Below, piece by piece: positions 1,256-63,272 of a DNA stretch of 64,000 nt. The translations under genes were made by a program, and so were the position numbers. Where the stretch lies: the NCBI RefSeq assembly GCF_947495275.1, contig NZ_CANLYL010000001.1, forward strand, positions 372,001 to 436,000, given 5' to 3'. A model generated the notes under the pieces. The model was not told the DNA's origin and made no database searches. It worked only from the letters and a program-made list of their open reading frames with translations. Position 1 is the stretch's first letter. Each line of letters starts with the position of its first letter. This stretch comes from an uncultured Roseobacter sp. (GTDB taxonomy: Bacteria; Pseudomonadota; Alphaproteobacteria; Rhodobacterales; Rhodobacteraceae).

Positions 1256-2161
1256 ATGGATTGGGATAAGCTGAGAATTTTTCACGCGGTCGCTGACGCC
1301 GGGTCTCTGACTCATGCGGGTGACAAGCTGAATTTGTCGCAATCCGCCGTTAGCAGACAGATCAGGGGCCTTGAGGAATCACTGAACGCCACCCTCTTCC
1401 ACCGACATGCCCGCGGCCTGATCCTGACTGAACAGGGTGAGCTTCTGTTTGACGCCACTTCCGCGATGTCAAAGCGACTGGATACAGCGTCTGCGCGCAT
1501 CCGCGACAGCGAAGAGGAGGTCTTTGGAGAGCTGCGGGTGACGACCACAACCGGCTTTGGCACCCTTTGGCTCGCGCCGCGCCTGCCGAAACTCTATGAG
1601 CAATATCCCGATCTTAAGATCGATTTGATGCTTGAGGAGCGGGTGCTTGATTTGCCCATGCGCGAAGCCGATGTGGCCATCCGCATGAAAGAACCCAGTC
1701 AGGCAGACCTGATCCGCAAGAAACTGATGACGATCCGCATGTGCCTTTATGCCACGCCGGATTACCTCAAGGCGAATGACACCCCTGCGGTGATCGAAGA
1801 TATCGAGGATCATCGCCTGATTTGCCAGAACACGGACAGCAACCAGGTTGGTTCGGGGCGTAACCTCGTGCAGCACCTGATGACATATGACATACGCTCG
1901 TTACTGACGGTGAATAACTACTACGGCGTTTTGCAAGGTGTTCTCAACAATCTGGGAATCGGTGTGCTGCCGGATTACGTGACGGAGGATTTCCCTGATC
2001 TCGTTCAGGTTCTGCCTGATCTGGAATCCGCCGATGTGCCTGTTTTTCTGGCATATCCGGAAGAATTGCGTCACTCCCAGCGGGTATCTGCCTTCAAGGA
2101 CTTCGTGCAGGAAGAGATCATCACATACCGCAAACAATTGAGAGAAAAGCAAAAGTTCTGA
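1256..2161 (+). CDS. LysR-family transcriptional regulator
   Basis: This 301-residue protein has the usual LysR length and layout. An N-terminal winged helix-turn-helix (about residues 1-60, with LSQSAVSRQIRGLEESL and LFHRHARGLILTEQGE) is followed by a periplasmic-binding-like effector domain. ATG 1256 (MDWDKLRIF) is preferred over an upstream start at 1166, because the 30 extra residues look like untranslated leader and the family begins near the helix-turn-helix. It is transcribed away from the indolepyruvate oxidoreductase gene, the arrangement typical of a LysR regulator and its target. The effector is unknown. Confidence 0.93.
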   Translation: MDWDKLRIFHAVADAGSLTHAGDKLNLSQSAVSRQIRGLEESLNATLFHRHARGLILTEQGELLFDATSAMSKRLDTASARIRDSEEEVFGELRVTTTTGFGTLWLAPRLPKLYEQYPDLKIDLMLEERVLDLPMREADVAIRMKEPSQADLIRKKLMTIRMCLYATPDYLKANDTPAVIEDIEDHRLICQNTDSNQVGSGRNLVQHLMTYDIRSLLTVNNYYGVLQGVLNNLGIGVLPDYVTEDFPDLVQVLPDLESADVPVFLAYPEELRHSQRVSAFKDFVQEEIITYRKQLREKQKF

Positions 2162-2224
2162 GGTGGGGCTTGAGCTATGCGCTCAATGCATATCGGACAT
2201 GCTACCTCGCGTTGTGATTCAGCC

Positions 2225-2253
2225 TTGATCGTGAGCAGCACGCCACTTATCTG
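2225..2253 (+). promoter_or_regulatory. Possible promoter of the candidate sRNA
   Basis: TTGATC (2225-2230) and TATCTG (2248-2253) are separated by 17 bp, matching the sigma-70 consensus at 4/6 and 3/6 positions. Initiation here would place the RNA start just before the first hairpin. The match is weak and only suggestive. Confidence 0.25.
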
Positions 2254-2259
2254 ATCAAT

Positions 2260-2337
2260 TGAAGGCGCGGGTGCTCTGCACCAGCCTTCATACCTCCCTG
2301 TTGGACTTGGCCGAGCTTCGTGCTCGGCCTTTTTTTT
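2260..2337 (+). ncRNA. Candidate small RNA (two hairpins, CCTCCC linker, intrinsic terminator)
   Basis: The stretch folds into a first hairpin, where TGAAGGC 2260-2266 pairs with GCCTTCA 2284-2290 and, inside it, GGTGC 2270-2274 with GCACC 2278-2282. A short unpaired linker follows, containing CCTCCC (2293-2298), complementary to a Shine-Dalgarno sequence. A strong intrinsic terminator ends it. At about 78 nt, hairpin plus anti-Shine-Dalgarno linker plus terminator resembles known alphaproteobacterial trans-acting sRNAs, but I cannot assign a family. The alternative is that this is simply the structured 3' end of the LysR mRNA, whose stop codon is at 2161. Confidence 0.45.
2309..2337 (+). terminator. 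Rho-independent terminator
   Basis: Perfect 8-bp stem GGCCGAGC (2309-2316) / GCTCGGCC (2322-2329), loop TTCGT, followed by eight T (2330-2337). It ends transcription from the LysR gene and/or the candidate small RNA before purL. Confidence 0.93.
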
Positions 2338-2353
2338 CGACCTCATAGAAGCG

Positions 2354-2381
2354 ACTGACCGTTGTCAGGGTTGAATAGTAT
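2354..2381 (+). promoter_or_regulatory. Possible purL promoter
   Basis: CTGACC (2354-2359) and TAGTAT (2376-2381) are separated by 16 bp, each matching the sigma-70 consensus at 4/6 positions. The pair lies just after the terminator at 2309-2337 and about 110 bp before the purL start. A promoter is expected in this gap, but the match is only moderate. Confidence 0.3.
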
Positions 2382-2490
2382 TTGAAACCGCCCTCAACAA
2401 CAGGCTTTGCCCTTTTCCCCCGATGTCCCTTCCTCTAAAGACGTCGCAATATTTGCGATTGCCAATGACGCGACGGGGGGCCCAAGCGCG

Positions 2491-4650
2491 ATGACTGAAC
2501 CTGCCATCACACCGGAGCTGATTGCCAGCCACGGGCTGAGCCCGGATGAATACGCGCGCATTCTGGAGATTGTCGGGCGCGAGCCCAGCTTTACCGAGCT
2601 TGGCATTTTTTCGGCCATGTGGAACGAGCATTGCTCCTATAAATCCTCGAAGAAATGGCTGCGCACCCTGCCAACAACTGGCCCGCAGGTTATTTGTGGC
2701 CCAGGCGAGAACGCAGGCGTTGTGGATATCGGGGATGGTCAGGCGGTTGTCTTCAAGATGGAGAGCCACAATCACCCCAGCTATATTGAGCCCTATCAGG
2801 GAGCAGCCACCGGAGTGGGCGGCATTTTGCGGGATGTCTTTACCATGGGCGCGCGCCCGATTGCGGCGATGAATTCGCTCAGCTTTGGCGCGCCATCGCA
2901 CCCCAAGACCCGGCAACTGGTCAATGGTGTTGTCGAGGGCATCGGCGGCTATGGCAACTGTTTCGGCGTGCCGACCGTGGGCGGCGAGGTGCGCTTTGAC
3001 CCGGCCTATAACGGTAATTGCCTTGTGAATGCTTTTGCAGCCGGTCTGGCGGATGCGGATAAGATTTTCTATTCCGCAGCCTCCGGGGTTGGCATGCCTG
3101 TTGTCTACCTGGGGGCCAAGACCGGGCGCGACGGTGTGGGCGGGGCCACCATGGCTTCCGCCGAATTCGACGACACCATCGAGGAAAAACGCCCCACCGT
3201 GCAGGTCGGTGACCCCTTCACGGAAAAGCGCCTGATGGAAGCCACGCTGGAGTTGATGAAAACCGGCGCGGTGATCTCCATTCAGGATATGGGGGCCGCC
3301 GGGCTGACCTGCTCCGCTGTGGAAATGGGCGACAAGGGCAACCTCGGCGTACGCCTTGATCTGGAAAACGTCCCTGTCCGTGAAGAGGCGATGACAGCCT
3401 ATGAAATGATGCTTTCGGAAAGCCAGGAACGCATGCTGATGGTCCTGCGGCCCGAGTTGGAATCGCAAGCCAAGGCCGTGTTCGACAAATGGGACCTCGA
3501 TTTCGCAATCGTCGGGGAAACCATTGCCGAAGACCGTTTCCTTATCGTCCATCATGGGGAGATCAAGGCCGACCTGCCGCTCAAGACACTGGCAGGCACG
3601 GCACCGGAATATGACCGCCTCTGGGAGCCGACACCCCCTGCTGTCCCCTTTGACGAGGCGCTCGACATTGATGCCATCGACGGGCTCAAGGCGCTGATCA
3701 CCAGTCCGAACTATGCGTCCAAGTCTTGGGTCTACACTCAATATGACACGATGGTCATGGCCGATACGGTGCGCGTTCCCGGGCTGGGCGCTGGCATCGT
3801 GCGCGTGCATGGCACCGACAAGGCGCTGGCCTTCACCTCCGATGTGACCCCGCGCTATGTCAAAGCAAATCCGGTCGAGGGCGGCAAACAGGCGGTGGCC
3901 GAGGCTTACCGCAATCTGATCGCCGTGGGGGCAACCCCGCTGGCAACCACGGATAACATGAACTTCGGCAATCCCGAAAAGCCGCAGATCATGGGGCAGT
4001 TCGTGGGGGCTATTCAGGGCATTGGCGCGGCGGTAGAGGCGCTGGATATGCCCATCGTCTCCGGCAATGTCTCGCTTTACAATGAAACCGACGGGGCGGC
4101 GATCTTGCCGACGCCGACCATTGGGGCCGTGGGGCTGATCGCGCATACGGATGACATTATCGGCTGTGATGTGCGCGCGGGCCATGTCGCGCTGCTGTTG
4201 GGGGACACCACCGGGCATCTTGGTCAATCCGCCCTGCTGGCCGAAGCCTTTGGCCGCGCGGAAGGTGACGCCCCGCCGGTCGATCTGGACAAGGAAGCCG
4301 CCCATGGTGCGTTCATCCGCGACAACCACCACCTGATCGCCGCCTGCTCTGACCTGTCAGACGGTGGGCTGGCGCTTGCCGCCTTTGAGATGGCTGAAAA
4401 ATCTGGCGTCGGGGTTCATCTGGAAACCGATGACACGGGCGCTCTTTTCGGGGAGGATCAGGGCCGTTATCTGATCGCCTGTTCTGTCGAGCAGGCCGAG
4501 GCGCTGGCAGCAGCGGCCAATGCCGCCAGTGTGACACTGAACCCTGTCGGACAATTTGGCGGTGATGATATCTCCTTTGGCGACAGCACTGCGCCGCTGG
4601 CGACACTCAGCGATCTTTATCGCGGGTCTTTTGCAGCAGCGGTTGCCTGA
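2491..4650 (+). CDS. purL: Phosphoribosylformylglycinamidine synthase subunit PurL
   Basis: This is the large synthetase subunit of FGAM synthase, step 4 of de novo purine synthesis; it works with PurQ and PurS, which are not in the window. The 719 residues match the usual small-type PurL. Typical blocks are WNEHCSYK (44-51), the glycine-rich [23 protein letters not shown] start of the ATP-binding AIRS domain, and a second AIRS repeat in the C-terminal half. An in-frame start at 2407 exists, but ATG 2491 (MTEPAITPE) gives the family length. The gene stands alone, with a terminator upstream and a converging gene 4 bp downstream. Confidence 0.97.
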
Positions 4651-5944: not shown

Positions 5945-6853
5945 TCAGGCGGGCTCCAGCGAGGATTTGACCTGATCAAGAATGCGTTTGGCCTCCGAGC
6001 CCTGAAGCTTCTGGATGTCATCCTGATACTTGAGGATCGCGCCCAAGGTATCGGCTATCACTTCCGGGCTGAGGTTGATGACATCCAGCGCAAGCAGGCA
6101 TTTCGCCCAGTCGATGGTTTCGGCGACACCGGGTTTTTTGAACAAATCCTCCGTGCGCAAATGCTGGACAAAAGCCACGACCTCGCGGCTGAGCGCTTCG
6201 GCGGCCTCTGGCGCGCGGGCGTGCAGGATGCTCATTTCCCGCTCGAAATCGGGGTAATCGACCCAGTGATAAAGACAGCGCCGCTTGAGCGCATCATGCA
6301 CCTCACGGGTCCGGTTGGAGGTGACGATCACGATGGGCGGCTGGGGTGCCTTGATGGTGCCCAGTTCCGGAATGGTGACCTGAAAATCGCTCAGAGCCTC
6401 CAGCAAAAACGCCTCAAAGGGCTCATCGGTGCGGTCCAGTTCGTCAATCAGCAGGACAGGGGCGCCATTCTCATCCGGTCGCATGGCCTCCAGCAGGGGC
6501 CGTTCGATCAGGAACTCATCGCTGAAAAGTTCCGCCTGAAGGGCTGTTCTGTCGCTGCCACCGGCCGCTTCAGCCGTGCGGATGGCCACCATCTGTGCGG
6601 GGAAATTCCATTCGTAGACAGCGCTTGCCGCATCCAGACCCTCATAGCACTGCAACCGGATCAACCGGCGGTTCAACCCGGTGGCCAAAGCCTTGGCAAT
6701 CTCGGTTTTGCCCACGCCGGCTTCCCCCTCCAGAAACAGCGGACGCCCGAGTTGCAAGGCCAGAAACACAACTGTTCCCAGAGAACGATCACAGACATAT
6801 CCCTGTTCTGACAGCATTTTCTGAACGGTGTCGATCGAGCTGGGATGTGTCAT
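5945..6853 (-). CDS. MoxR-family AAA+ ATPase
   Basis: This 302-residue AAA+ protein has a Walker A motif GEAGVGKT (43-50) and a Walker B motif VLLIDELD (133-140). The length and the ELDRTDEPFEAFLLEAL block are typical of the MoxR/CoxD branch. These ATPases remodel or load cofactors into client proteins together with a VWA partner, here the CoxE-like gene directly downstream. ATG 6853 opens with MTHPSSIDTV; there is no competing in-frame start in the family-conserved part. Confidence 0.9.
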   Translation of the reverse strand: MTHPSSIDTVQKMLSEQGYVCDRSLGTVVFLALQLGRPLFLEGEAGVGKTEIAKALATGLNRRLIRLQCYEGLDAASAVYEWNFPAQMVAIRTAEAAGGSDRTALQAELFSDEFLIERPLLEAMRPDENGAPVLLIDELDRTDEPFEAFLLEALSDFQVTIPELGTIKAPQPPIVIVTSNRTREVHDALKRRCLYHWVDYPDFEREMSILHARAPEAAEALSREVVAFVQHLRTEDLFKKPGVAETIDWAKCLLALDVINLSPEVIADTLGAILKYQDDIQKLQGSEAKRILDQVKSSLEPA

Positions 6854-7326
6854 GTAGTCTCCTGTGTTGCGCAGTAACCTGCACTCCTAACCACAGCCGT
6901 CAAGCACTGATCGCCTTCTGGCGCCTGCCATCCGTTGGATTGACGCGATTCGGTGGACCTGTCATGTTTGCCCCACAAGAATGGAAACCCGGGCGATGAA
7001 CCCGGCGTCGAGCAAAAAAACAGGCGGCAAGGGCACATGGCAGAGACCGACGACGGCACTACCGGGACGTTCTGAGATGTTTGTTGTCCTGACCCAGGTT
7101 GCTCAAAACGATTGGCCATGTCAGCTGGCAGTCTGCGCATCCAACAAACAGCTGCACGATAGGCGATTGGAGACACCCGACTGTCCGCCCGATCTGACCC
7201 TGTCTTCAAATGCTGCTTTACGCGGGCACACAAAGGAGGCCGTCCGTTGCTCGGGACAATCCCCGAATCGCTTGCCTTTCAGCCAGATGCCAGACATCCG
7301 CAACACAACGAGCCCATGGTAAAGAC
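6854..7326. other. Intergenic region without recognisable gene
   Basis: About 470 bp separate the divergent MoxR gene and the glycosyltransferase. I found no tRNA, IS remnant or protein with recognisable similarity. A minus-strand open frame (6850-7233) has no domain and an unconvincing composition. The region must hold promoters for both neighbours. It contains a GC-rich dyad CCGGG-N7-CCCGG (6989-7005) followed by an A-run, which is not a terminator on the plus strand. Confidence 0.6.
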
Positions 7327-58085: not shown

Positions 58086-58490
58086 TCATTTCTCACGCAA
58101 CAACACGCCAATAGTGCTGTTGCGTGCAATTTCCGCTTTGCCGAGCGCACAATACCCGGCCTCATCCACTTTCAGCCCCTGCGCTGCCATGTAATCTGCC
58201 GCGCGGGCCCGCAAGCGGTCCTTTTCAACGTCCGAGTCCACATGGGCGTCAATTTCCTTCTTGGTATACCCCAAGGCTTCGGCCTGTGCATTCAGATCCT
58301 GCAAGGCCCCCAGCGCCCGGAATATCCGTGCAGAGATCACCGGGCAGTTTTTGCGGATCTGATCCGCCAGCCCAATGGCAAAAAGCCCGTCATCAATGGA
58401 TTTGACCTCCCGCAGGGGCGGGTTGGCCGCTGCAACACCGGTCACAAAAACAGCGCCCGCCGTGACCATGGTCATAATCATCTTCCGCAT
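58086..58490 (-). CDS. DUF5333 family exported protein
   Basis: This 134-residue protein has a signal peptide (cleavage about residue 22, after VAAAN) and a helical body, ending with TIGVLLREK. It matches DUF5333, a Rhodobacterales family often within nuo operons. Two Cys (in KNCPV and YCALG) may pair. The gene at 59444 shares the same terminal pattern (TIGQFLVRE) and may be a distant relative. Confidence 0.82.
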   Translation of the reverse strand: MRKMIMTMVTAGAVFVTGVAAANPPLREVKSIDDGLFAIGLADQIRKNCPVISARIFRALGALQDLNAQAEALGYTKKEIDAHVDSDVEKDRLRARAADYMAAQGLKVDEAGYCALGKAEIARNSTIGVLLREK

Positions 58491-58940: not shown

Positions 58941-59438
58941 TCACTCCGCGGCCACCGGCGCGCATCTGCCCGCGCGCCACTGGCTTGCTTCTTTCAGATG
59001 CGACCAGCCAAAGGCATGATCGCTGTCACCATGGGTTTTGAGGTGTGCCAGCCGGTCCAGCGCTTCTGCAAGCGTCGGTTCATGGCCTTCAGGCACCCAC
59101 CACATCACGAAATGCATCTCTCCCAGCACTTCGAACCATTCCTGGCGGCGCTCGTAAAACTGCTTGTGGATGGTGCCCCAGACGAATTTCTCCAGCGTCT
59201 CCACGCTCTCCCAGACCGTGAGGTTAGCGACATATTGCGGGTCACCGTCGATCTTGGCATCGGTGTTGCCCGTGCCCGGCTCTCCTGAGCCTTCCATCAT
59301 CCACACGAACCCCGGCATGCGCTTGCCCAGGCCGTTGATCCGATCAAGGTTTGCCATGAACTCCGCCACGCGCGGATCATCCGTCGGCGCGATCAGGCGG
59401 CCAACGTTGAGTTCGGCGAGGTGGTATCTATTGACCAT
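58941..59438 (-). CDS. DUF3291 family protein
   Basis: This 165-residue protein of the DUF3291 fold (a dimeric alpha/beta barrel) has RYHLAELNVGRLIAP near the start and the VANLTVWESVETLEKFVW block. It is a common roseobacter companion of nuo genes. Function unknown. It starts 6 bp after the low-GC gene at 59444. The longer reading to 59510 adds residues outside the fold. Confidence 0.85.
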   Translation of the reverse strand: MVNRYHLAELNVGRLIAPTDDPRVAEFMANLDRINGLGKRMPGFVWMMEGSGEPGTGNTDAKIDGDPQYVANLTVWESVETLEKFVWGTIHKQFYERRQEWFEVLGEMHFVMWWVPEGHEPTLAEALDRLAHLKTHGDSDHAFGWSHLKEASQWRAGRCAPVAAE

Positions 59439-59443
59439 CAATG

Positions 59444-59842
59444 TTACTCCCGGACCAAAAACTGGCCGATAGTATCGTTCTTTCCAGCAACGTTTCGAGC
59501 GAATGAGCAAACCGCAGAGCTGTTATTGTCGTTGACCCCGCGTTCAGCTAGTATTCTTGCTTTCTCCTGCTGAATCCAAACTGTTTGCCCGTAAAACAAT
59601 AGCTTTCGCATTTTGTTTTTTCGCAACCCTTGCTTCTTCAAGACCTCCGTTGCGGACAACACAAACCCTTGATAATCTTCGGGGCCAAAAGAACCAACAC
59701 TGTTACATTCTTGTTGCATTTCATAAGCTGCAGCCACCTGTCCAACTGCCGTGCCATAGGGATCGTTGCCGGCAGCAGTCACGATTGTACCGACACCTAT
59801 TGCGACAAAAAGCGAAAGAAAGACGCCAGATAATTTCATCAT
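59444..59842 (-). CDS. Low-GC exported protein distantly similar to DUF5333
   Basis: This 132-residue protein has a signal peptide (MMKLSGVFLSLFVAIGVGTI, cleavage after about residue 27). The C-terminal half ends SFARNVAGKNDTIGQFLVRE, like the DUF5333 gene at 58086 (KAEIARNSTIGVLLREK). GC is about 47% (187 of 399), well under neighbouring nuo genes near 60%. It lies between nuoF and the DUF3291 gene. Function unknown; the start codon M59842 or 59839 is uncertain. Confidence 0.7.
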   Translation of the reverse strand: MMKLSGVFLSLFVAIGVGTIVTAAGNDPYGTAVGQVAAAYEMQQECNSVGSFGPEDYQGFVLSATEVLKKQGLRKNKMRKLLFYGQTVWIQQEKARILAERGVNDNNSSAVCSFARNVAGKNDTIGQFLVRE

Positions 59843-59850
59843 AGCCCCCA

Positions 59851-61146
59851 TCACTCCGCCGCCACAGCGCTCACACGCCCTGTCCGTTTATGCTTGATGC
59901 GGTCCTCGATCTCGTCGCGGAAATGGCGGATGAGGCCCTGAATGGGCCAGGCCGCCGCATCCCCCAAGGCGCAGATCGTGTGGCCCTCGACCTGTTTGGT
60001 CACATCCAGCAGCATGTCGATCTCTTCGGGTTCCGCTTCGCCGGTGACCAGACGGTCCATCACGCGCATCATCCAGCCGGTGCCTTCGCGGCAGGGCGTG
60101 CACTGGCCGCAGCTTTCGTGTTTGTAGAATTTTGACAGCCGCCAGATCGCCTTGATCACATCCGTCGAGTTATCCATCACGATCACCGCCGCCGTGCCGA
60201 GGCCGGAGCGTTGTTCGCGCAGATAATCGAAATCCATGATCGCGTCTTTCATCTGCGCGCCGGGGATCATCGGCACCGAGGATCCACCGGGGATCACCGC
60301 CTTGAGATTGTCCCAGCCGCCGCGGATACCGCCGCAATGGGTCTCGATCAACTCCTCGAAGGTAATCGACATGGCCTCCTCAACCACACAGGGGTTGTTC
60401 ACGTGACCCGAAATGGCAAACAACTTTGTGCCCGCGTTGTTGGCTCGCCCGAAACCGGCAAACCACTCCGGCCCGCGCCGCAGGATCGTCGGCACAACGG
60501 CAATCGACTCCACGTTATTCACCGTGGTCGGACAGCCATAAAGCCCCGCGCCCGCCGGGAAGGGGGGTTTCATGCGCGGCATGCCCTTCTTGCCCTCAAG
60601 GCTTTCCAGCAGCGCCGTTTCCTCACCGCAGATATAGGCCCCGGCACCATGATGCAGGTAAAGATCGAAATCCCAGCCCGACCCGGCGGCGTTCTTGCCA
60701 ATCAGCCCCGCGTCATAGGCCTCGTCAATGGCGCGTTGCAGCGCCTCTTTCTCGCGGATGTATTCACCGCGAATGTAGATGTAACAGGCATGCGCATTCA
60801 TCGCGAAGCTGGCGATCAGACAGCCCTCGACCAGCGTATGCGGGTCGTGGCGCATGATCTCGCGGTCCTTGCAGGTGCCGGGCTCGGATTCGTCGGCATT
60901 GACCACCAGATAGGCAGGCCGCCCGTCGCTTTCCTTGGGCATGAAAGACCATTTCAGACCGGTCGGAAAACCCGCGCCACCCCGCCCGCGCAGACCGGAG
61001 GCTTTCATCTGATCCACGATCCAGTCGCGCCCCTTCTTGATGATCCCGGCCGTGCCGTCCCAATGGCCGCGCGCCTGCGCACCCTTCAGCGTGCGGTCAT
61101 GCATGCCGTAGATATTGGTAAAGATCCGGTCCTTGTCCGTGAGCAT
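59851..61146 (-). CDS. nuoF: NADH-quinone oxidoreductase subunit F
   Basis: NuoF (431 residues) binds NADH and FMN and carries a [4Fe-4S] cluster. [10 protein letters not shown] (55-64), the glycine-rich NADH/FMN loop, and [15 protein letters not shown] near residue 345 are present. The reading starts at 61146 ([17 protein letters not shown]). A DUF5337 gene lies 12 bp upstream. Confidence 0.97.
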
Positions 61147-61158
61147 ATTGCTCCCCTT

Positions 61159-61407
61159 CTACTCGTTGCCGCGCTGCGCCTTGCGCGCGCGCCGTATTTG
61201 GAATGACACGATCAGCGCCCAGAAAAGCCCGGCCAGTGCTGCGAAATCAAACAGAAACGCATAGCGCCCGGGCAGGCCCAGCTTTGGCCCGAGCCAGAGC
61301 GCCAGCAGCCACAGACCCATGGTCACTAGGATCACAATGCTCACCAGCCGCCCCTTGGCGGCCAGGGCGGCTTGCTGTGATGGTCTGTCCTGATGTTGCG
61401 CACTCAT
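61159..61407 (-). CDS. DUF5337 family membrane protein
   Basis: This 82-residue protein has two membrane helices (about 20-40 and 48-68) in a pattern typical of DUF5337, a Rhodobacterales family found in nuo operons. The ends are hydrophilic and basic. Function unknown; perhaps a complex I accessory subunit. Confidence 0.82.
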   Translation of the reverse strand: MSAQHQDRPSQQAALAAKGRLVSIVILVTMGLWLLALWLGPKLGLPGRYAFLFDFAALAGLFWALIVSFQIRRARKAQRGNE

Positions 61408-61456: not shown

Positions 61457-62146
61457 CTAGTCACCTTTGGCCAGCGCCTTGGCCTGACCCACCCAGTCGT
61501 CGCGTTCGATCCGACCCTTGAACCGCAGACGGGCGTCCACCCATTCAATGTCTTTCTTTTTCAGCTTGGCCACCTGATCGAAATGCCAGATGCCGAGGCT
61601 GTTAAGCGTCTCTTCCAGCTTCGGCCCAACGCCGCTGATCTGTTTAAGATCATCCGCACCGCCGTCCCGTGGCGCATCTGAAAATGCTGCCGGGCGCGCG
61701 TCTGCTGCTGCGGCCTTCGGGGCGGCGGCTTTCTTGGCAGTGGCTTTTTTCGCAGCGGGTTTTTTTGCAGGTTTCTTGGCTGCCGCCTTGGGCGCGGCTG
61801 CCTTCTTGGCAACCGGTGCCGCAGATGCTTCAGCTGCCGCGGATTTCTCAGCTGTCTCGGCCTCGGCGGGTTTTTCAGCCTGCGGTGTAGCAGCGGCGGC
61901 AGGTTTAGGCGTCTCTGCCGGTTCTGATGGCTTCAGCTCCACCGTGTTCGGCGCAGGCAACGGGCGGGTCATGATCCAACTGATCACGCCACCGACAACG
62001 ACGAAGACCACAAATCCCGCAAAAGCACCCTGCATGAAGCTCCAGCCGCCCAAGACCCATAGCATAATGGCTGCTACCGCGCCGGCCGCCAAAGCCACCA
62101 GCCAGCTCCCCAGCGCCATGCTGATCATTCCCTGTTTGTTGTCCAT
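61457..62146 (-). CDS. Membrane protein with H3TH-like C-terminal domain shared with NuoE
   Basis: The 229-residue protein has two membrane helices (about 10-30 and 38-60), a long Ala/Lys/Pro linker (61-145), then a helix-hairpin-like domain (about 148-229) with [22 protein letters not shown]. The last domain is 70/79 identical to the C-terminal tail of NuoE, two genes apart. Such domains are classed near flap-endonuclease-like H3TH folds but carry no nuclease site here. It is probably a linker tying a soluble partner to the membrane. Confidence 0.8.
   Translation of the reverse strand: MDNKQGMISMALGSWLVALAAGAVAAIMLWVLGGWSFMQGAFAGFVVFVVVGGVISWIMTRPLPAPNTVELKPSEPAETPKPAAAATPQAEKPAEAETAEKSAAAEASAAPVAKKAAAPKAAAKKPAKKPAAKKATAKKAAAPKAAAADARPAAFSDAPRDGGADDLKQISGVGPKLEETLNSLGIWHFDQVAKLKKKDIEWVDARLRFKGRIERDDWVGQAKALAKGD
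61469..61712. repeat. Direct repeat, copy A (H3TH-like domain of the membrane protein)
   Basis: About 244 bp match 62235-62478 without indels; the encoded segment is 89% identical over 79 residues. The DNA is also very similar, with shared blocks such as GACCCTTGAACCGCAG in coding-strand complement. It marks a recent or gene-converted duplication. Confidence 0.85.
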
Positions 62147-62216
62147 CCCAGTCTCTCTTTCCGGTTTCTCGCGTCAGACGCTCAGTTTTTACCGTTTCTT
62201 ACCGTTATTTGGAAAT

Positions 62217-63272
62217 TCAACTATCTTTCTCATCGGCCAGCGCCTTGGCCTGACCAATCCAGTCGTCGCGCTCGATCCGACCCTTGAACCGCAGCCGCGC
62301 GTCAACCCAGGCGATATCTGCCTTTGTAAAGCTTGCAACCTGATCGAAATGCCAGATGCCAAGGCTGTTGAGCGTCTCCTCCAGCTTCGGCCCCACGCCG
62401 CTGATCCGTTTGAGGTCATCCGCGCCGCCGTCCCGTGGCGCATCCGACAATTGCGCCGGCCGCGCATCTGCCGCAGCCGGTTCAGCCGCAGGTGTCTTCG
62501 GTGCAGATTTTTTCGCGGCTGGCTTGGTCTTGGCTTTTGCAGGTTTCGCCGCTTTGTTTGCGGGTTTGCCTTGCCAAGGCATGACCAGCGGCACCTCGGT
62601 CCCGTCGATCCGCTTGATGCTGTCGCCAATATCCACCGCTAGTTGTGCCGAAGCATTATATTGGGTCTTGCCGCTGTCATGTTCGGTCAGCGATGTCAGC
62701 CCCTTGAGTGGCTCCGCCGCGTAGCGACCGTTCTGCGGGCCGGGCACAGGCACTTTGCCTGCCGCCATTTCATCAATGATCGCACCCATGCGGTCGGCGG
62801 TCAGATCCTCGTAATAATCCTTGCCGATCTGCGCCATGGGTGCATTTGAACAGGCCCCGAGGCACTCCACTTCTTCCCATGAAAACTTGCCATCGGCGGA
62901 AAGTGCATGCGGTTCCGGCGCGATTTTCTCCTTGCAGACTGCCACGAGGTCTTCGGCCCCGCAGATCATGCAGGAGGTGGTGCCGCAAACCTGAATATGG
63001 GCAACAGAACCAACAGGTTGCAACTGGAACATAAAGTAGAAAGTGGCCACTTCCAGCGCCCGGATATAGCTCAGCCCGAGCATGTCCGCCACATGTTCGA
63101 TCGCCGGTTTGCTCAACCAGCCCTCCTGCTCCTGCGCACGCCACAGGATCGGGATAATTGCAGAAGCCTGACGGCCCTCTGGGTATTTCGTGATCTGACC
63201 CTCAGCCCAAGCCTGATTGTCGGGCGTGAAGGCAAAGCTTTCGGGTTGTTCAGGGTGTAGTCGGCGGAGCAT
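62217..63272 (-). CDS. nuoE: NADH-quinone oxidoreductase subunit E with extra C-terminal domain
   Basis: NuoE carries a [2Fe-2S] cluster in a thioredoxin-like domain (about 1-165), with Cys96, Cys101, Cys137 and Cys141. At 351 residues it is much longer than the usual about 160-240. A Lys/Ala/Pro linker (about 233-267) and an H3TH-like tail (268-351) are added. The tail is nearly identical to that of the membrane protein at 61457. The start 63272 lies 79 bp from the nuoD stop. Confidence 0.94.
62235..62478. repeat. Direct repeat, copy B (H3TH-like domain of NuoE)
   Basis: This is the partner of 61469-61712, of the same length without indels. The two repeats keep the same reading frame in two different genes, one fused to a membrane anchor and one to NuoE, 766 bp apart. 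Confidence 0.85.

Follow-up and report, generated by a model that had tools for sequence, protein, structure and literature searches.

A predicted protein-O orthologue in the nuo operon of an uncultured Roseobacter and the probable copying of its C-terminal module into NuoE

Why should NuoE of complex I and a membrane protein encoded next to it end in nearly the same domain? The question is raised by the nuo operon in a 64,000-nucleotide stretch from an uncultured Roseobacter sp., called the window here, in which both genes lie on the minus strand (coordinates are those of this stretch unless a locus is named). nuoE (62217-63272) encodes a protein of 351 residues with a C-terminal extension and scores 589.2 bits against NCBIfam NF009040 (PRK12373, long C-terminal extension), over the cut-off of 514. 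The C-terminal module of NuoE comprises residues 268 to 351 (62220-62471) and is the putative recipient in a gene conversion. The next gene encodes the two-helix membrane protein, MP, of 229 residues (61457-62146). It consists of a transmembrane hairpin (residues 5 to 60, turn WSFMQGAF; 61967-62134), an Ala/Lys/Pro-rich linker of low model confidence, which we take to be disordered (residues 61 to 147; 61706-61966), and a C-terminal helix-hairpin-helix-like module (residues 148 to 229; 61460-61705). On the same strand, a DUF5337 protein (Pfam; 61159-61407) fills the interval between MP and nuoF (59851-61146); it had no significant match in the PDB. The nuoF/nuoG interval holds a DUF3291 protein (58941-59510, minus strand) as well as a DUF5333 protein and another protein that is likely related to the latter (19.5 bits against a Pfam cut-off of 27), at 58086-58490 and 59444-59854.

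An earlier note on this DNA had claimed that NuoE and MP agree at 70 of 79 positions in their C-terminal domains and that the DNA copies align over about 244 bp without indels, and we found both claims to be sound. Starting at the ADARPA common to both proteins, 70 residues are identical, of 79 when the count stops at the last residue in common and of 82 when it runs on until the shorter protein ends. At the DNA level, the modules form a two-copy repeat family of 243 nucleotides (61469-61711 in MP and 62235-62477 in nuoE), ungapped and 85% identical. Of the 82 codons, 31 differ, 19 of them synonymously and 12 nonsynonymously, and the linker DNA upstream of the modules matches poorly, at 13 to 14 of 30 nucleotides per block. 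Of the 95 sampled genomes of the order with both modules, the window genome has the highest DNA identity between them (0.854; median, 0.671). The likeness of the two modules in this genome is not a matter of chance.

A search of the PDB gave MP an identity. Its residues 11 to 228 matched chain O of 8yy9 (E value of 4e-35; hairpin alone, 9.6e-5) and its residues 8 to 227 matched chain a of 9wqv (1.1e-33). The entry titles are of a tri-heme reaction center-light-harvesting 1 complex (RC-LH1) from a marine photoheterotroph and of the LH1-RC of Rhodovulum sulfidophilum, respectively. The AlphaFold2 model has helices at residues 5 to 33 and 37 to 60, followed by a linker of low confidence and a domain of five helices with a pLDDT of about 88 to 95. 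The modeled hairpin superposes on 8yy9 chain O at 1.4 Å over 52 residues, with weak Foldseek E values for the hairpin (0.08 to 0.6). PHROGs gave no match for MP. Chain O is protein-O of Dinoroseobacter shibae (GenBank ABV93056.1), which was located between the reaction center and the LH1 ring with only residues 8 to 59 visible, its hairpin touching RC-L, RC-H, and LH1 alpha 11/12 (PMC12079452). According to the same study, the D. shibae gene lies between nuoE and nuoF, as MP does in the window, and the likeness of the C-terminal domain of protein-O to that of NuoE had already been pointed out; the study left open the origin of protein-O, as a resident or an acquired protein, and the role of its C-terminal domain (PMC12079452). 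By homology, MP is thus an orthologue of protein-O and a further member of that family. The earlier note had held that no such function was described, which is superseded by the D. shibae study. Our literature search on RC-LH1, complex I, and NuoE extensions found nothing on MP or its module beyond PMC12079452. Two Photo_RC genes, which we take to be pufL and pufM, lie in tandem in the window genome, and we infer that MP is present in the RC-LH1 of this organism.

The module itself was less easily named. In the model, the MP module is a single domain of five helices. The solved folds closest to it, at middling Z scores, are the N-terminal helix-hairpin-helix domains of RadA/Rad51 and the AR2 domain of NusA; sequence identity to these is 20 to 23%, a likeness of fold only. 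Nothing indicated the H3TH type named in the earlier note. The five helices recur in the NuoE model, where they too come after a linker of low confidence, with a whole-model pLDDT of only 66.5. No Pfam family exceeded its cut-off for the module, the helix-hairpin-helix scores of MP being under the curated cut-offs (HHH_5, 15.5 against 27 bits; Cdd1, 15.7 against 25.5; IMS_HHH, 14.8 against 24.4), and NCBIfam returned only whole module-bearing proteins.

We investigated the distribution of MP and of the module in 149 genomes of the order, 148 after one locus at a contig end (L121) was dropped. MP was scored as two helices plus module and was sought in the nuoE/nuoF interval; elsewhere it was sought only by way of the module. 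Genomes with reaction center genes (64 of 148) were taken as phototrophs. MP was found in the nuoE/nuoF interval of 105 of the 148 genomes, comprising 60 of 64 phototrophs and 45 of 84 nonphototrophs, and in 61 phototrophs when a relocated gene in genome G134 is included. Since MP lies in the nuo operon of so many genomes, nonphototrophs included, it looks like a resident gene that was recruited. Pagel's test on a tree of NuoE and NuoF supported dependence between MP and phototrophy (likelihood ratio of 16.7, P = 0.0022, with G134 counted; 14.8, P = 0.005, without it), whereas an underpowered test of independent pairs was not significant (median P = 0.625). MP loss tracks and follows the loss of photosynthesis. 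In most genomes without MP, short two-helix open reading frames (ORFs) were seen by eye in the ORF lists, comparable to the DUF5337 neighbor. In two nonphototrophs (loci L032 and L033 of G128 and G103), an ORF of 135 to 141 residues with many hydrophobic stretches replaces MP.

The relocated gene stands in a photosynthesis context. G134 encodes an MP-like protein of 205 residues with hairpin, linker, and module, which matches 9wqv chain a with an E value of 2.7e-24 and, over its own residues 12 to 197, 8yy9 chain O with 5.7e-22. Its gene (L308:3065-3682) lies 35 bp behind a dxs-like ORF (L308:3718-5712), the last part of which encodes a transketolase pyrimidine-binding domain. A 76-residue ORF at the PufX match (L308:5841-6071) and the two Photo_RC genes (L308:7002-7850 and 6086-7009) come before, so that the order on the one strand, minus, is pufL, pufM, pufX, dxs-like ORF, MP-like gene. 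In Rhodobacter, dxs is found downstream of the puf genes.

Of the 64 phototrophs, 30 had a PufX match over the cut-off; two genomes with matches below it, G057 and the nonphototroph G084, were counted as lacking PufX. All 34 phototrophs without PufX have MP, which is missing from 3 of the 30 with PufX (Fisher's P = 0.097, with G134 counted; 4 of 30, P = 0.043, if G134 is scored as lacking MP). Of the three, G062 has the module on a one-helix anchor, and G046 and G094 are without a further module copy. Among the 39 nonphototrophs without MP, further modules are located, as judged by eye, at the gene of ribosomal protein bL21 or occur on one-helix anchors (L301, L303, and L304), and that of G110 is on a hairpinless protein. 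In seven phototroph loci (L061, L067, L072, L085, L101, L109, and L122), an extra module ORF lies in the MP/nuoF interval. Some of these ORFs look like phasins by eye, but the first 110 residues of five of them had no NCBIfam match.

A glutamine in the hairpin turn (WSFMQ in the window) occurs in 22 of 34 phototrophs without PufX, in 7 of 26 with both PufX and MP, and in 1 of 45 nonphototrophs, and it is associated with phototrophy by Pagel's test (likelihood ratio of 25.5, P = 4e-5) as a motif picked post hoc, after inspection of the alignment. Because all sampled phototrophs without a PufX match have MP, the glutamine in the turn is almost exclusive to phototrophs, and the G134 gene sits behind the puf genes, the data suggest that MP/protein-O is a general subunit of RC-LH1. 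Photosynthesis is not its sole role, however, as 45 of 84 nonphototrophs keep MP under purifying selection: with pairs of saturated dS left out, the median dN/dS in nonphototrophs was 0.23 for the hairpin (12 pairs) and 0.11 for the module (10 pairs), near the values for phototrophs.

These results, with those on gene conversion below, lead us to a reading that we consider probable: MP would be a resident nuo gene that serves as protein-O in phototrophs, and its near-identity to NuoE would stem from conversion of about 240 bp from MP into nuoE. In phototrophs, the hairpin would be the protein-O subunit wedged between the reaction center and the LH1 ring, where it would most likely aid assembly and keep the quinone path open. 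The long flexible linker would hang a helix-hairpin-helix-like domain from RC-LH1 into the cytoplasm, and the same mobile module would also hang from complex I by way of NuoE, from bL21, and from other membrane anchors. The module would most likely be a small protein interaction unit for a common cytoplasmic partner rather than one half of a NuoE-MP lock and key.

Of the alternatives, the one that survives best makes MP primarily an accessory or assembly protein of complex I, with its presence in RC-LH1 a secondary recruitment in phototrophs. The place of the gene between nuoE and nuoF, although also the place searched, and the selection on MP in nonphototrophs would both fit. However, MP loss follows the loss of phototrophy, 43 of the 148 genomes have complex I and no MP at nuoE/nuoF, and G134 has its MP-like gene behind the puf genes. 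Moreover, the extra complex I subunits of Paracoccus denitrificans named in the accessible text of PMC11522691 are NDUFS4, NDUFS6, NDUFA12, and a PIMT. We therefore regard a primary role in complex I as unlikely.

The preferred reading of MP as a resident gene serving as protein-O includes gene conversion, which was examined with a tree of the window's genus. In the best tree, two NuoE modules, those from the window genome and from its relative G075, nest within the MP clade with supports of 100/98. The NuoE modules of G112, G031, G034, and G089, the last from another genus, lie on the other side of the tree and share one extra residue. At fourfold degenerate sites, the two modules of the window genome differ at 10 of 30 positions, while the NuoE core differs at 58 of 108 between the window genome and G075. 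The nesting and this difference indicate that the MP copy probably overwrote the end of nuoE, and that it did so in the lineage of the window genome once this had separated from G075. The two G075 copies differ at 16 of 28 fourfold sites, at least as much as the NuoE core does between the species, so that conversion in G075 would be older or is doubtful. Uniting all six NuoE modules as one clade was not rejected by the AU test (P = 0.155; log likelihood lower by 9.8 over 222 columns).

The last result leaves room for a different account, in which selection holds both modules to the same partner-binding surface and no conversion took place. The module is under strong purifying selection, separate clades are compatible with the AU test, and the G075 copies are alike in protein (identity of 0.84) and not at fourfold sites. 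The window copies, however, are unusually alike at fourfold sites too, given that those of G112, G031, and G034 differ at 14 of 18, 12 of 21, and 10 of 18, and both lack the extra residue of the NuoE modules of G112, G031, G034, and G089. Selection by itself thus appears improbable, and conversion of nuoE by the MP copy is the best explanation of the near-identity.

Conversion is not a general homogenizing force, because the median identity of the NuoE and MP modules within a genome (0.65 across the order) is about that between genomes. The earlier note had offered conversion as what keeps the copies alike and had proposed a check for concerted evolution across Rhodobacterales. That check gave no sign of it as a general rule, and the near-identity in the window genome is exceptional; the suggestion of conversion was supported within the window's genus, with the reserve of the AU test, and not for the order. 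The module tree shows 35 changes between NuoE and MP labels, against a mean of 77.8 over 50 shuffles, which means either repeated exchange or poor resolution of a tree of 72 residues. A warning follows from this locus: conversion within an operon can give two copies the look of a matched pair.

The module reaches well beyond this pair. It is present on NuoE in 133 of 148 genomes and next to the bL21 core in at least 94 of 149 (adjacency checked). The window genome has two further copies, one on bL21 and the other on an ORF that follows a caspase-like ORF. These two ORFs lie at L004:427-2121 and 2118-3146 (minus strand; caspase likeness by eye), and the module on the one that follows is a distant copy of 30% identity, the fourth of the genome. 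Five of the 149 genomes (G022, G024, G081, G094, and G115) had no module match at an E value of 0.001 on NuoE, MP, or bL21. Among 190 genomes of Alphaproteobacteria, 18 matched the module at an E value of 1e-6, 3 of them from the window's own family. In the 30 loci inspected, one of which yielded no ORF, the carriers were NuoE, bL21, and membrane proteins with at least one helix, the module usually standing behind a low-complexity linker (by eye). The NuoE module is present in 120 of 125 genomes with a further module copy versus 13 of 23 without one (raw counts, uncorrected for kinship), and it goes with such further copies rather than with MP. One might read the module as a shared tag by which the ribosome (through bL21), complex I (through NuoE), and the photosystem core (through MP/protein-O) gather, either on a single cytoplasmic partner or on one another. 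This is a long shot; if true, it would couple translation to the assembly or the positioning of both respiratory and photosynthetic complexes.

A tether to nucleic acid, made of the module and a Lys-rich linker akin to histone H1-like tails, is more doubtful. It could draw on the fold, which is near the helix-hairpin-helix domains of RadA/Rad51 and polymerases, and on a weak match of the MP linker to Pfam HC2 (histone H1-like; E value of 0.003, below the cut-off). The charge of the linkers is not conserved, however: that of MP is negative in 65 and positive in 39 of 106 cases (including one second ORF of G125), that of NuoE is negative in 40 and positive in 83 of 132, and the module has a median charge of -1. 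Linker charge was accordingly rejected as a sign of nucleic acid binding.

The two modules might finally dock and tether complex I, as the earlier note had proposed, the anchor being either the membrane or RC-LH1. The domain is the same in both proteins and the genes are adjacent. NuoE faces the cytoplasm. Both modules are expected to be cytoplasmic, that of MP by the topology described for protein-O (PMC12079452). However, the NuoE module and MP occur independently of each other: they occur together in 96 of the 148 genomes, the NuoE module without MP in 37, and MP without the NuoE module in 10, while 5 genomes lack both, without correlation by Pagel's test (likelihood ratio of 2.1, P = 0.71; P = 0.56 without G134). 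The median identity of the pair within genomes being about that between genomes also speaks against docking. In Rhodovulum visakhapatnamense, MP matches the LH1-RC chain of R. sulfidophilum over 222 residues with an E value of 4.9e-131, and NuoE is a protein of 247 residues that lacks the module. If the NuoE of R. sulfidophilum is like that of this sister species, MP would be an RC-LH1 subunit there without a NuoE partner. Tree-based co-occurrence and the Rhodovulum case remove docking as the leading reading, and we consider it highly improbable.

For the module, these results make a mutual dependence of NuoE and MP unlikely and point to a partner common to complex I and the ribosome. For MP, the counts address the question of a resident or acquired protein-O that the D. 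shibae study had left (PMC12079452).

Compared with known systems, MP is closest to protein-O of D. shibae, with which it shares homology over residues 11 to 228, the two-helix hairpin, the long linker, the C-terminal domain, and the position between nuoE and nuoF (PMC12079452). In D. shibae, a disulfide joins the cytoplasmic ends of the two helices (PMC12079452), whereas MP of the window has no cysteine. The disulfide is an observation from D. shibae and not an established family-defining trait of protein-O; both cysteine columns are filled in 22 of 34 MPs from phototrophs without PufX, in 9 of 26 from those with PufX, and in 25 of 45 from nonphototrophs. Another difference is the near-identical copy of the module on NuoE in the window genome. 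Chain a of the R. sulfidophilum LH1-RC, for which no accompanying paper was found in our literature search, is homologous to MP over residues 8 to 227 and is represented by 110 residues in the structure library; it was named complex I 41 kDa subunit by its depositors. PufY/protein-U of Rhodobacter sphaeroides is likewise a two-helix hairpin at a similar RC/LH1 site (PMC12079452 and PMC9007983), but its primary sequence is described as quite distinct (PMC12079452). It has 53 residues (PMC9007983) and is therefore without linker and C-terminal domain. In phototrophs such as the window organism, MP would take the place that PufY/protein-U holds in R. sphaeroides.
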